NCBI GenBank assembly: GCA_947258705.1
Contig: CAMYJA010000004.1
Span: forward strand, 1-64,000
Direction: 5' to 3'
From: an uncultured Hyphomicrobiaceae bacterium
GTDB lineage: Bacteria; Pseudomonadota; Alphaproteobacteria; Rhizobiales; CAMYJA01
Length of the DNA: 64,000 bases
Each line of letters begins with the position of its first letter. Position 1 is the first letter of the stretch. This document shows positions 51,365 through 61,508 of the stretch, piece after piece. The notes under the pieces are model-generated. The model saw only the letters and a program-made list of their open reading frames with translations, searched no databases and had not been told where the DNA came from. Position numbers and translations under genes: made by a program.

Positions 51365-51433
51365 TTGCTGATATCCGTGATTGTGCCGATCGGTTTCGGG
51401 GGGAGCATATGGGCCGGGCTATCTGCGCGCCCG

Positions 51434-53629
51434 TCAATTGGGCCGGCCGGGCCGGGCCTGAGCGCCTATGGCGGGCGCGGGAGTGTCCGCCCCCGGCCGG
51501 CCGGTGCTGTTTTCAGGCAATATGCCGCTCCTGGATTTAAAGGTTTGAGCGAGCTCTTTCATGATAGACAAGGTTTTTTTAGGCATGATTGTTTTGTCGC
51601 TTTGCTTCTTGATGGCCAAAGTCGGGTTGTTTCGCTTTAACAGCGCCAGACGCTGACGTTCGGCTATTTGATTGGGATGAAGGGGCAGGCCCGGTATCTG
51701 CGGTATGTTCGGGTCGGCATGGGCGAGGGTCATGAAATTTTTCCACGTCATGGCGGGCAGACTGCCGCCGGTCACGCGGTTGGTCGGTCGGAAGTTGTCA
51801 TTGCCGAACCAGACGCCGGTTACGTATTTTCCGGTGTATCCCATGAACCAGGCGTCCTTGTAGCCCGAACTCGTACCGGTTTTTCCCGCAGCCGTGGTAA
51901 AGTCAAGGAAGGCCCTGCGGCCCGTTCCCGCTGTCATGACCTGGCCGAGCATGTAATTGAGGTTCTGCACGACTTCGGGATCGACGAGCTGTTCCGCCGG
52001 CGGCTCGTCACGCGCGCGAGAATATATAACGTCGCCATTGGTGGTGAGCAGCTCCGTTACGCCGTAAGGATAGGCGGATTTTCCGCCATTGGCGAAAACG
52101 GCATAGCCGCCTGTGTGGTAAAGCGGTGGAATGCCGACATCCCCGAGCGCCATGGAGCAGGTCTTTTTGACCCATTTCAGTCCAAATTTCCTGACATTGG
52201 CCAATACTTTTTCGCGCCCGACCGAGAGGGAAAGCTTGACCGCAACCGTGTTGAGAGACTTTGCCAGGGCCGTCGTCATGGTCATACGCCCGCGATAGCC
52301 GCCCGAATAATTTCTCGGCGACCAGCGGCCGCATGAGACAAAGCCGTCCACGACGATCGAATTCGGCCGGTAGCCGTTTTCGAGCGCGGTGAGATAGACA
52401 TAGGGCTTGAAAGAGGAGCCGGGCTGCCGGAAAGCATGTGCGGCACGATTGAACTGGCTTTCACCATAGTCCTTGCCGCCGACCATGGCCTTGACGGCCC
52501 CGTCGGTTTCCATCGCGACCAGAGCCGCCTGATCGACGGAATAGGACCGGCCGGACTGGCGGAACGTGGTCGTGACGGCTTCCTCGGCGGCTTTTTGAAG
52601 CCGGAGATCTATGGTGGTGCGCGCGGTCAGCACATATTTGTTTTTCCCCTCCGCCAGGCGCTGTACTTCCTCGAAAATCCAGTCGAGAAAATAGTCGGGG
52701 CTATCGGGATTGCGGGTGATGACGATTTGGGCGGGATTGAGCCGGGCGCCGTGCACCTGGCCTTCCGTCATGAATCCCGCTTCGACGAGGTTCGACAGAA
52801 CTTCATTGGTCCGGGCGCGGGAGGCGGCCAGGTTCACATGCGGCGCATATTTGCTGGGCGCCTTGAACAGGCCGGCCAGAATGGCCGATTCGGAGAGGGT
52901 CAGGTCGCGAACGGATTTGGCAAAATAATATTTGGACGCGGCTTCGATGCCGAATGTGCCGCCGCCCATATAGGCACGGTCGAGATAGAGCTTGAGGATC
53001 TCTTCCTTGGATAAATGGGTTTCCAGCCATATGGCCAGAAACGCTTCCTTGATCTTGCGGTCGAGGGACCGCTCAGACGTCAGAAAGAGGTTTTTCGCCA
53101 ATTGCTGGGTGACCGAGCTGCCGCCCTGAACGACGCCGCTGGCGCGAAGGTTAGCCAGCAGGGCGCGAAACGTGCCGACGACGTCAATGCCGAAATGGCT
53201 GAAAAAACGCCGGTCCTCGGTCGCCAGGGTGGCCTTGATCAGATGATCCGGCACCTCGTCCAGGGGGACGGCATCGCTGTGCAATATGCCGCGTTTGCCG
53301 ATCTCCTTGCCGTTGATGTCGAGGATAGTGATGCTGTACTGGCCGGTCGCGCGCCAGTTGCCCTTATCGATCTCGAGAAATGCCGGCATGGCGAGCGCAA
53401 GCAGGACAGCCAGTCCGCCGGTGCCGAGGGTCAGGGCCTCGGAAAATATTTCATTGATAATCCGCTTATAACCGCTCAAGCGAAAGCGGGCGAAAAAGCT
53501 GGAAGCGATATTCCAATACTCCTTCAGCTCCTGCCAGCTTTCGAAGAGATAGGAATCAATCCATGAATCAAGCGCCAGCCAATTGAACGACCGGCCGCGT
53601 CCGCCTTTTCTGAAGATCCATTTGCTCAT
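51434..53629 (-). CDS. PBP1A-family bifunctional penicillin-binding protein
   Basis: 731 residues. A membrane segment (about 75-90), a glycosyltransferase domain with EDRRFFSHFGIDVVGTFRAL near 137 and GGSSVTQQLAKNLFL, KEAFLAIWLETHLSKEEILK, and a transpeptidase domain with nucleophile SSFK in RQPGSSFKPYVY, SLN in LAKSLNTVAVKLS and KTGTSSGYKDAWF. Polymerises and cross-links peptidoglycan in the periplasm. The last 60 residues are Pro/Ala/Gly-rich. In Hyphomicrobiales a PBP gene is commonly found next to the GTA cluster (from memory). Confidence 0.95.
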   Translation of the reverse strand: MSKWIFRKGGRGRSFNWLALDSWIDSYLFESWQELKEYWNIASSFFARFRLSGYKRIINEIFSEALTLGTGGLAVLLALAMPAFLEIDKGNWRATGQYSITILDINGKEIGKRGILHSDAVPLDEVPDHLIKATLATEDRRFFSHFGIDVVGTFRALLANLRASGVVQGGSSVTQQLAKNLFLTSERSLDRKIKEAFLAIWLETHLSKEEILKLYLDRAYMGGGTFGIEAASKYYFAKSVRDLTLSESAILAGLFKAPSKYAPHVNLAASRARTNEVLSNLVEAGFMTEGQVHGARLNPAQIVITRNPDSPDYFLDWIFEEVQRLAEGKNKYVLTARTTIDLRLQKAAEEAVTTTFRQSGRSYSVDQAALVAMETDGAVKAMVGGKDYGESQFNRAAHAFRQPGSSFKPYVYLTALENGYRPNSIVVDGFVSCGRWSPRNYSGGYRGRMTMTTALAKSLNTVAVKLSLSVGREKVLANVRKFGLKWVKKTCSMALGDVGIPPLYHTGGYAVFANGGKSAYPYGVTELLTTNGDVIYSRARDEPPAEQLVDPEVVQNLNYMLGQVMTAGTGRRAFLDFTTAAGKTGTSSGYKDAWFMGYTGKYVTGVWFGNDNFRPTNRVTGGSLPAMTWKNFMTLAHADPNIPQIPGLPLHPNQIAERQRLALLKRNNPTLAIKKQSDKTIMPKKTLSIMKELAQTFKSRSGILPENSTGRPGADTPAPAIGAQARPGRPN

Positions 53630-54252: not shown

Positions 54253-54286
54253 TAATAAATAAATACAAAAATAAATAAATTAATAC

Positions 54287-54315
54287 TTGACACCGTAACG
54301 CTAGATCTGTATAAG
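54287..54315 (+). promoter_or_regulatory. Sigma-70-type promoter upstream of GTA cluster
   Basis: TTGACA (54287-54292), 17-nt spacer, then TATAAG (54310-54315): a -35 identical to consensus and a -10 differing at one place. It lies 87 nt before the first GTA gene, within an AT-rich run (54250-54290). Confidence 0.7.
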
Positions 54316-58467: not shown

Positions 58468-59706
58468 ATGGAAAAAATTGAGAACAAGGCTGCGTCCACG
58501 GGTGAAATCGCGGATGCATTTGATGATTTCATGCATGCGTTTGAAGCGTTCAGGCATGAGAATGACGAAAGGCTCCGGCAGGTTGAAAAGCGGAAATCCT
58601 CGGATGTCGTTACCACCGAAAAGCTCGACAGGATCAACGACGCGATCGATGAGCACCGCAGGCTGGTCGATGACCTGGTATTGAAAGCAGCGCGGCCGGG
58701 ACGGGGAACGGGCGGTCCTGCATCCGGCCTGACGCTGAAACACAGGCATGCGTTTGACGGCTATATCCGCAAGGGTGAGGCAGGCGAGCTGCGGGCGCTG
58801 GAGGAAAAAGCGCTGAGTGCGGGCTCGGATCCGGACGGCGGTTATCTCGTGCCGGACGAAACGGAAGCCAGCGTGATCAGCTCGCTCAAGGATATTTCTC
58901 CCATTCGTTCCATTGCGGGCGTCCGGCAGGTAAGCGGTTCGGTGTTCAAGAAGCCGTTCTCCATATCAGGACCGGGCACTGGCTGGGTCGGCGAGACGGA
59001 TGCGCGGCCCGAGACGACGGCGCCGACACTGGCAGAGCTGACATTTCCGACCATGGAGCTTTATGCCATGCCGGCGGCGACACCGACATTGCTCGACGAC
59101 GCCGCGGTCAATATCGACGAATGGATCGCGCAGGAAGTGAGTACCGCCTTTGCCGAACAGGAGGGCGCCGCATTCGTCAATGGCGACGGGATCAACAAGC
59201 CGAGGGGCTTTGTCGATTATCCGAAAGTGGCCAACACTACCTGGAGCTGGGGCAATGTCGGATATATCGCCACCGGGACGGATGGTGCGTTCGATGCGGT
59301 TAATCCGGTCGACGATCTCATCGATCTCGTCTATTCGGTCAAGGCCGGATACAGGTCGAATGCGAACTGGGTCATGAACCGTGCGACCCAGGCGGAAATC
59401 CGGAAAATCAAGGATGCGGACGGAAATTACATCTGGCAGCCGAGCGTGGCACCGGGTAGCGCGCCGACGCTTCTTAACACACCAATCGTGGAAGCTGAGG
59501 ACATGCCGGATATCGCGTCCGATGCCTTCGCGATCGCTTATGGCGATTTCAATCGCGGATATCTGATTGTCGACCGTCTCGGCATCCGGGTGCTTCGCGA
59601 TCCATACAGCTCGAAACCCTATGTGTTGTTCTATACGACCAAACGCGTAGGCGGCGGCGTGCAGGATTTCGACGCCATCAAGTTCATGAAATTCGGTCTT
59701 TCATGA
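58468..59706 (+). CDS. GTA major capsid protein (HK97 family, g5)
   Basis: 412 residues. The N-terminal 90 are a charged coiled-coil delta domain (IADAFDDFMHAFEAFRHEND) removed by g4. The mature core contains PLSFKRHAFDGYIRKG-like LTLKHRHAFDGYIRKG, GSDPDGGYLVPDETEASVIS, and GINKPRGFVDYPKVANTTWS. Immediately downstream of the protease (3-nt gap). Confidence 0.96.
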   Translation: MEKIENKAASTGEIADAFDDFMHAFEAFRHENDERLRQVEKRKSSDVVTTEKLDRINDAIDEHRRLVDDLVLKAARPGRGTGGPASGLTLKHRHAFDGYIRKGEAGELRALEEKALSAGSDPDGGYLVPDETEASVISSLKDISPIRSIAGVRQVSGSVFKKPFSISGPGTGWVGETDARPETTAPTLAELTFPTMELYAMPAATPTLLDDAAVNIDEWIAQEVSTAFAEQEGAAFVNGDGINKPRGFVDYPKVANTTWSWGNVGYIATGTDGAFDAVNPVDDLIDLVYSVKAGYRSNANWVMNRATQAEIRKIKDADGNYIWQPSVAPGSAPTLLNTPIVEAEDMPDIASDAFAIAYGDFNRGYLIVDRLGIRVLRDPYSSKPYVLFYTTKRVGGGVQDFDAIKFMKFGLS

Positions 59707-59735: not shown

Positions 59736-59842
59736 TCGGTTCGCGCGGACAGGTTTCCGGGCCTCTCCTTCCAGAAGCCACACGCCGGAATGCGATCTCT
59801 GGTGGTTTTTCCTCCAGAGGTGGCGCCTGGCGCGCGAACCGA
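59736..59842 (+). ncRNA. Three-way-junction RNA element between capsid and connector genes
   Basis: A perfect 12-bp stem TCGGTTCGCGCG (59736-59747) / CGCGCGAACCGA (59831-59842) encloses hairpin TTCCGG / CCGGAA (59755-59760 and 59785-59790) and hairpin CTCTGG / CCAGAG (59797-59802 and 59814-59819). A T-rich run follows (59843-59858), up to the next start. No codon frame passes through. It could be an attenuator, processing site or decay block in the GTA mRNA (inference). Confidence 0.65.
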
Positions 59843-59859
59843 TTTTTCAATCTTTTTTT

Positions 59860-60465
59860 ATGCGAGTTTTTCGAATGGCGCTTGTTTCCATTGCAGGACC
59901 ATCGTCGGAGCCCGTGCTCCTGAGCGATATCAAGGCCCATCTCCGCGTTACGGACAGTGAAGAGGATACGCTTATCGCGGGATTGATTACGGCGGCGCGC
60001 GTCCATATCGAGCATTTGCTCTCGCGGGCGCTGATCACGCAAAGCTGGTCATATTTTCTCGACACCTGGCCCGCCGACGACACGGTTGTTCTGCCCCTCA
60101 ATCCGGTTCAGAGCATCGGATCGATTCAAATTTACGATGCTGACGACAGCACAACACTATTGTCTCAAGGGGATTATTACCCAGATCTTGCGGCCGATCC
60201 GGCCCGGATAATATGGCTTGGCAAGGCGCTCCGGCCGGCGCCAGGGCGCGTGGCGAACGGCATCGAGGTGCAGTTTTCAGCCGGTTATGGCGATCTGGCG
60301 GATGACGTACCGGAACCGCTGCGCCAGGCGATAAGGCTTTTGGTGACGCATTGGTATGAAAGGCGGGAGCCGGTCGAGGTCGGCGAGCAGCCGGCGCAGG
60401 TGCCGATGATGATCGCCAGCCTGCTCAGCCCTTACCGCAATATGGGTATCGGTGACCGGATATGA
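59860..60465 (+). CDS. GTA head-tail connector protein (gp6-like, g6)
   Basis: About 201 residues; start ATG 59860 or ATG 59875 (MALVSIAGPSSEPVLLSDIK), neither with a good SD. HK97 gp6-type connector: LSDIKAHLRVTDSEEDTLIA near 20, then LITAARVHIEHLLSRALITQ. Adaptor binding beneath the portal. Overlaps the next gene by 4 nt. Confidence 0.9.
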   Translation: MRVFRMALVSIAGPSSEPVLLSDIKAHLRVTDSEEDTLIAGLITAARVHIEHLLSRALITQSWSYFLDTWPADDTVVLPLNPVQSIGSIQIYDADDSTTLLSQGDYYPDLAADPARIIWLGKALRPAPGRVANGIEVQFSAGYGDLADDVPEPLRQAIRLLVTHWYERREPVEVGEQPAQVPMMIASLLSPYRNMGIGDRI

Positions 60466-60779
60466 TCGGCGGGATGAGGGCCAAAATGTCGCTTGAACGC
60501 GTCGTTCGCGTCGGCGATGGCGGCGGTGGCGCGGATGAAAGCTGGGTGACCGTTGCGAGCGTCTGGGCGTCCATACGGGCATTGAGCGGCGATGAGGAAT
60601 TTACGGAGCACAGGGTGTCGGGGCGGGTGACCCATGAGGTTACATTGAGGTACCGCTCGGATGTCGAGCCGGAAATGCGGATGTCCAGGGGCACGCGTAT
60701 TTTCGAGATACGCGGGATTGTGGATCCCGATGACCGGCGACGGCGGCTGATCTGTTTTTGCGAGGAACGCGAGTTGTGA
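60462..60779 (+). CDS. GTA head closure protein (g7)
   Basis: 105 residues. ATG 60462 shares ATGA with the g6 stop. VRVGDGGGGADESWVTVASV, WASIRALSGDEEFTEHRVSG and RGTRIFEIRGIVDPDDRRR match the SPP1-type closure family used by GTAs. Keeps DNA in the filled head. Confidence 0.88.
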   Translation: MIGGMRAKMSLERVVRVGDGGGGADESWVTVASVWASIRALSGDEEFTEHRVSGRVTHEVTLRYRSDVEPEMRMSRGTRIFEIRGIVDPDDRRRRLICFCEEREL

Positions 60780-60967
60780 AGATCCGGATCGAGGTGCGCA
60801 TGGCGGGAGGGGGGAGAGAAAGCGAGCTCTTCTCAAGCGAGGAGGATGGGTTTACGGATGGCGCGCAGTCGGAAATCGGGAGAAGCGGCATGTCCGAAGA
60901 AATTTTGCGCGGCGTTCGCCGCGCGGTCCGATCCTCGATTAGGAATTTGGCAATTAAAACGAGGTAA
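60776..60967 (+). CDS. Small 63-aa frame between g7 and g8
   Basis: GTG 60776 overlaps the g7 stop (GTGA). Product VKIRIEVRMAGGGRESELFS, then Glu/Asp-rich, then a basic helix GMSEEILRGVRRAVRSSIRN and LAIKTR. Nothing comparable lies between these genes in the Rhodobacter GTA (from memory); a shrunken minor tail/connector gene is possible. The next gene begins 24 nt later with AGGAGG. Confidence 0.5.
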   Translation: MKIRIEVRMAGGGRESELFSSEEDGFTDGAQSEIGRSGMSEEILRGVRRAVRSSIRNLAIKTR

Positions 60968-61405: not shown

Positions 61406-61432
61406 GAACGGATAAAATTTACGAATTTTGCG

Positions 61433-61456
61433 GCCTTCCTTCGGGGAGGCTTTTTT
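61433..61456 (+). terminator. Intrinsic terminator-like hairpin between GTA g8 and g9
   Basis: 7-bp stem GCCTTCC / GGGAGGC with one T-G pair and UUCG loop (61433-61439 and 61444-61450) followed by six T (61451-61456). In the operon direction, 28 nt after the g8 stop and about 50 nt before the g9 start. Confidence 0.8.
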
Positions 61457-61508
61457 ATTGGACAGACAGGCGATCTCTTCGCCCGTCGCATTTATGGAGA
61501 GCCCAGAT

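Follow-up and report, generated by a model that had tools for sequence, protein, structure and literature searches.

The 64,000-nt stretch of DNA analysed here (the window) carries a GTA-type cluster in the order terminase-portal-protease-capsid-connector-tail, including a member of the GTA-gp10 family, PF11836. A GTA (gene transfer agent) is a domesticated virus by which DNA passes from one bacterium to another, and GTA clusters, presumed to be read as a single long transcript, must supply capsid subunits in large numbers and connectors in small numbers. An earlier reading of the window, made from its letters alone, had placed a structured RNA exactly between the capsid gene and the connector gene, and the Pfam assignments bear this placement out, with PF05065 upstream (58468-59706) and PF05135 downstream (59860-60465). 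The features at this boundary are as follows.

58468..59706, + strand: gp5-like major capsid gene (HK97-type); Pfam PF05065, E 3.7e-92
59736..59747, + strand: closing stem, 5' arm; sequence and fold, mean unpaired probability 0.02
59750..59754, + strand: inner 5-bp helix, 5' arm, partner 59825-59829; MFE structure
59755..59790, + strand: hairpin 1; MFE structure
59763..59772, + strand: pyrimidine motif CUCUCCUUCC in hairpin 1, a degenerate form of the CU-rich loop of relatives; unpaired probability
59792..59824, + strand: hairpin 2; MFE structure
59806..59815, + strand: UUUUUCCUCC, tip of hairpin 2, in which CCUCC (59811-59815) is mostly paired; sequence and pairing probabilities
59831..59842, + strand: closing stem, 3' arm; sequence and fold
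59843..59859, + strand: T-rich tail TTTTTCAATCTTTTTTT, from the end of the stem up to the gp6 start; sequence
59860..60465, + strand: gp6-like head-tail connector gene; Pfam PF05135

A branched RNA fold between the capsid and connector genes

On the + strand, TCGGTTCGCGCG (59736-59747) pairs over its full length with CGCGCGAACCGA (59831-59842), giving a perfect 12-bp stem within which the 5-bp helix (59750-59754 with 59825-59829) encloses the two hairpins (59755-59790 and 59792-59824). Directly 3' of the stem come TTTTT (59843-59847) and then TTTTTTT (59853-59859), after which gp6 begins at 59860. The perfect stem, the two hairpins and the T-rich stretch described in the sequence-only reading are all present, and sequence and fold agree: the MFE of 59736-59842 is -59.6 kcal/mol against a shuffle mean of -40.5 (sd 3.6; z -5.29), and none of 200 shuffles folds as low. 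Folds as stable occur in two of 2556 tiled 107-nt segments of the + strand, and these two overlap, at 51401-51533. Perfect 12-bp inverted repeats with arms at most 110 nt apart are found at six places in the 64 kb, compared with 0-4 in each of 20 shuffles of the window. No Shine-Dalgarno sequence precedes the gp6 ATG at 59860, and no clear one precedes the alternative ATG at 59875; the gp6 and gp7 reading frames overlap by 4 nt.

The element was also said to be unfamiliar from GTA clusters, and this still stands, as we found no paper that mentions it and Rfam 15 returned no match. Among 14 relatives searched at E 0.1 there was likewise no Rfam 15 match save a sub-threshold streptococcal sRNA (E 0.066), and assignment to a known RNA family was rejected for the window and these relatives.

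With respect to termination, the window has what is expected of an intrinsic terminator in that a GC-rich hairpin is directly followed by a U-tract. It does not have a simple short hairpin with a small loop, being 107 nt long and branched, and a terminator pattern scan misses the 12-bp stem.

Strong folding recurs at the same gap in related clusters

We assembled 80 loci with related capsids, of which 79, the window included, provided gap lengths; in the genome set, the genus and family of the window are represented by this one genome, and family names, other than those for named loci, were deduced. In 77 of the 79 loci, 50 nt or more separate gp5 from gp6, and the gp4-gp5, gp6-gp7 and gp9-gp10 gaps are near zero. 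The gp7-gp8 gap of the window contains a small reading frame (60758-60967), and the gp3-gp4 gap, short in the window, probably contains one in most relatives.

For spacers of 40-330 nt, the median folding z is -3.94 at gp5-gp6, with values below -2 in 60 of 66 Hyphomicrobiales-type GTA spacers, compared with medians of -0.05 at gp3-gp4, -0.42 at gp7-gp8 and -0.59 at gp8-gp9. The median for ordinary tandem gaps in one Filomicrobium genome is -0.52 (n=101; genes predicted with a simple script). The result was replicated in 34 non-redundant metagenomic gp5-gp6 spacers from IMG/VR, 33 of which have z below -2. Five phage records with related capsids lack the feature (z -0.8 to -2.4, no CCTCCC). 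Strong folding at the gp5-gp6 position is general in these loci and in the IMG/VR spacers. Since related sequences are not independent, p-values given here and below are guides only.

The sequence-only reading had made its case depend on conservation among relatives, and the outcome is divided. Conservation holds for the site, in that strong folding is general and compensatory change is extensive in one family; for the 12-bp stem itself, no spacer among 131 others could be aligned with that of the window (blastn, no match). In those groups of spacers that can be aligned with one another, the hairpins contain compensatory pairs, although these alignments are loose.

The recurrence of structure at this gap bears on whether the element is a palindromic repeat of the scattered REP or RPE kind, one copy of which landed here by chance. 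A GC-rich palindromic stem in a gap has the look of such a repeat, and the spacers of some relatives are expanded with repeat-like hairpins. We nonetheless consider this origin very improbable, and rejected it, as a REP/RPE-like repeat should be present in several copies and the element has a single copy in its own genome; moreover, a chance insertion leaves unexplained why relatives have a structured element of different sequence at the same gap. Three gp5-gp6 spacers (L071, L079 and L084), of 220-325 nt, consist of nested inverted repeats of great length (z -8 to -14) and look like the product of a palindromic element that grew in place.

A second alternative is that the window holds a plain leaky intrinsic terminator 3' of the capsid gene, past which a GTA antitermination complex of the GafZ/GafA type would carry transcription. 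A stable stem with U5 immediately behind it and U7 a little further on is what this predicts, and the cluster has a second terminator-like hairpin between gp8 and gp9, at 61432-61451. In Caulobacter, GafZ lets RNA polymerase through an internal GTA terminator (PMC11150451). That terminator, terGTA of Caulobacter crescentus, follows the first gene, gtaT, and is made up of three direct repeats of 150 bp each (PMC11150451). It resembles the window element in being terminator-like, inside a GTA cluster and expected to limit the expression of later genes, but the window element is single-copy, without the three repeats, and follows the capsid gene. A T-tract after the last hairpin is found in 17 of 65 loci (4 of 65 in a reverse-strand control), and its rarity indicates that termination is not the property these loci share. 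In addition, aligned sequences from the family f20, described below, have no T-run 3' of the outer stem, yet they keep the hairpins and the CU loop. We therefore regard a plain terminator as unlikely, though it is the foremost of the alternatives.

The gp8-gp9 hairpin (61432-61451; GGCCTTCCTTCGGGGAGGCT) comes with TTTTTT and is possibly a second internal terminator of the cluster. For gp9, a start at the ATG near 61492 is more likely than the listed TTG at 61428.

A pyrimidine motif is enriched on the mRNA strand

The gp5-gp6 spacers of relatives carry a pyrimidine motif on the mRNA strand, CCUCCC or CUCCUCCC. In the sense orientation CCTCCC is present in 41 of 66 spacers, compared with 2 of 66 in antisense and 10.1 in shuffles (maximum 16), and its bases have an unpaired probability of 0.77 against 0.43 for all C. 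The same orientation bias is seen in the 34 IMG/VR spacers (19 sense, 3 antisense, 5.8 in shuffles). In a GTA family taken as Sphingomonadaceae, 7 of 14 spacers have the motif (shuffles 2.2, maximum 7); copies on Paracoccus chromids fold strongly and have no CU motif. The idea that 3' gaps contain CU motifs as a rule was rejected, as CCTCCC occurs in 3 of 171 ordinary downstream gaps of the Filomicrobium genome. In the window, CUCUCCUUCC has a mean unpaired probability of 0.72 against 0.48 for all pyrimidines; this degenerate CU motif could be due to chance, as it arises in about 9% of shuffles. The conserved pyrimidine loop goes beyond what the earlier reading had noted, as does its complementarity, in one family, to the gp6 Shine-Dalgarno sequence.

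Loops of this kind are known from the alpha-r14/NfeR1/cuckoo sRNAs, which have variable stems and conserved unpaired CCUCCUCCC loops complementary to the Shine-Dalgarno sequence (PMC10746234, PMC3927594). The spacers of GTA relatives are similar in that stems vary and an unpaired CCUCCUCCC-like loop is conserved, and the element might by this comparison be a trans-acting sRNA, derived from the 3' end of the capsid mRNA, whose anti-Shine-Dalgarno loop silences host messages. In support of this, unpaired CUCCUCCC-like loops are present in many relatives, and Rhodobacter is known for sRNAs derived from 3'-UTRs (PMC8625941). We find such a role improbable. The alpha-r14 RNAs are free-standing and have three or four such hairpins, whereas the GTA motif is found between genes of an operon, in most cases as a single copy; the window has no CCUCCUCCC and, in place of several hairpins with that motif unpaired, has only CUCUCCUUCC and the mostly paired CCUCC. 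The lack of an Rfam 15 match also argues against it, and the bias in the gp6 Shine-Dalgarno sequence of f20, presented below, points to a target in cis. A simple scan found no promoter-like site near 59700.

The gap RNA of one family of genomes is a distinct RNA family

In the family of genomes that we call f20, which on the basis of capsid similarity to Paracoccus is probably Rhodobacteraceae, an element of about 80 nt occupies the gp5-gp6 gap. Its parts are an outer stem of 11 bp, a second stem inside it and a nearly invariant apical sequence, GUCYAGCUGCUCCCCUCCGUCCGAGC. When 16 sequences were aligned by sequence alone, 16 of 23 pairs had compensatory changes, and the covariation score was 0.466 compared with 0.250 in shuffled alignments (0/500) and at most 0.155 when the structure was slid. 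Among 70 sequences, whose membership was chosen with the model described next, 18 of 23 pairs covary; neither this alignment nor that of 16 sequences was fitted to the model, and one further count of compensatory changes rests on an alignment that was.

A covariance model of 79 positions, R1, matches 74 of 149 f20 genomes (once in each of 73 and twice in one) and 33 of 61 genomes in a second sample of the order to which f20 belongs. Class-wide, R1 matches 1 of 289 genomes, and that one belongs to f20. Each of the best 30 matches is flanked by the capsid gene and gp6. In the 41 genomes searched for both, the element is present in 17 of 29 that are capsid-positive and in none of 12 that are capsid-negative. 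Viral contigs contain the 23-nt core, without mismatch, at least 120 times; among the 120 core matches listed, 118 have capsid upstream and gp6 downstream, and the remaining 2 have gp6 downstream with the capsid missing or unplaced.

We found no paper describing this RNA, and it is clearly an RNA family absent from Rfam 15. Because R1 picks out GTA loci in a single family and gave no off-target match in the 289 class-wide genomes, it could help to separate GTAs from prophages. R1 matches neither the window nor the genome from which the window comes; of the R1-like traits, the window has the position and the long closing stem, and the CU loop motif in degenerate form only.

Loop complementarity to the gp6 Shine-Dalgarno sequence

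The gp6 Shine-Dalgarno sequence is CGGAG in 40 of 49 f20 contigs, compared with 42 of 411 other genes on the same contigs, and this pentamer is the exact complement of the conserved f20 loop CUCCG. Because the extra C is of no help to ribosome binding, the bias is naturally read as a sign of pairing with the loop. Where f20 genomes have lost the loop UCCG, CGGAG is lost as well in 3 of 4 (p 0.03, uncorrected for descent), whereas some f20 GTAs (L186, L188, L191 and L193) keep CGGAG without a recognisable element.

Among Hyphomicrobiales, pairing of the CU motif with the Shine-Dalgarno sequences of gp4, gp5, gp6, gp8 and gp9 was not significant, gp6 coming closest (p 0.09), and a word-based repeat of the gp6 comparison gave p 0.7 and 0.5 with no preference for the own locus. 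Given this lack of matching, and the f20 GTAs that keep CGGAG without the element, we take masking of the ribosome site as likely in f20 only, where pairing of the CUCCG loop with CGGAG would lower gp6 translation. It cannot apply in the window, where gp6 has no Shine-Dalgarno sequence. In five Rhizobiaceae-like loci (L038, L041, L043, L060 and L061), the gp6 Shine-Dalgarno GGGAG is exactly complementary to CUCCC in the locus's own spacer; over all Hyphomicrobiales this match is not significant.

Discussion

From the observed structure, the conserved site, the strand-specific enrichment of the motif and the covariation in relatives, we infer that the window contains an intercistronic cis-acting RNA element, at a conserved site in GTA clusters, that would uncouple high capsid output from low connector output; we put the probability of this reading at about 0.6. 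A folded RNA, often with a loop rich in pyrimidines, is retained by relatives at precisely this place, which suggests that it probably raises capsid over connector, and its position between high-copy and low-copy products, together with the stable folds, is why we read it as a barrier. The element would set gp5, which is needed in high copy, apart from the head-tail genes gp6 and gp7 that follow.

In the window it probably acts as such a barrier where the capsid mRNA ends: the branched stem and U-tract may end part of transcription, as a leaky intrinsic terminator, and/or the stem may stop 3'-5' RNA decay and so shield the 3' end of the capsid mRNA. Alongside partial termination, the missing Shine-Dalgarno sequence would make for weak gp6 initiation. 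Which of termination, a decay block or ribosome-site masking acts in the window we can only infer; the U-tract right after the stem and the missing gp6 Shine-Dalgarno sequence would fit partial termination plus weak gp6 initiation. Relatives would retain the barrier in hairpin form, in many cases with a loop rich in C and U, and in f20 the CUCCG loop may act on the gp6 CGGAG.

Elements at comparable positions occur in other systems. In phage T7, T-phi is reportedly a partial terminator directly after the major capsid gene. The window element is likewise directly 3' of the main capsid gene, although phage and polymerase are unrelated, and we know of no conserved loop in T-phi. Nor do we know of a pyrimidine loop in the intercistronic stem-loop of the puf operon. 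Chen, Beatty, Cohen and Belasco 1988 (cited in PMC9690577) name this stem-loop of Rhodobacter capsulatus an "mRNA decay terminator" in their title. Like the GTA element, it is a hairpin between genes of high and low amount in an alphaproteobacterial operon; the two show no sequence homology as far as tested. By analogy, the GTA element may have a decay-terminator role of the puf type.

A broader proposal, which we advance tentatively and hold at somewhat less than even odds, is that alphaproteobacterial GTAs share an undescribed RNA element at the capsid-connector boundary, a hairpin whose pyrimidine (anti-Shine-Dalgarno-like) loop sets the capsid:connector ratio, either by covering the gp6 ribosome site or as the binding site of a dedicated factor. 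In that case the window would have a divergent, terminator-like version. A conserved RNA at this boundary makes control of the ratio testable in tractable GTA producers.

Other features of the clusters

Upstream of the first GTA gene of the window (54402) is a near-consensus sigma-70-like promoter, TTGACA-17 nt-TATAAG (54286-54315), which is possibly the promoter of the cluster. The segment at 51401-51533, where the + strand of the window forms its most stable 107-nt folds, is a GC-rich stretch that is intergenic in appearance. In several relatives, divergent or prophage-like clusters (L085-L087, L092, L095 and L124) have an extra reading frame, beginning MRDL or MQDL, that starts immediately 3' of the capsid gene and ahead of gp6.
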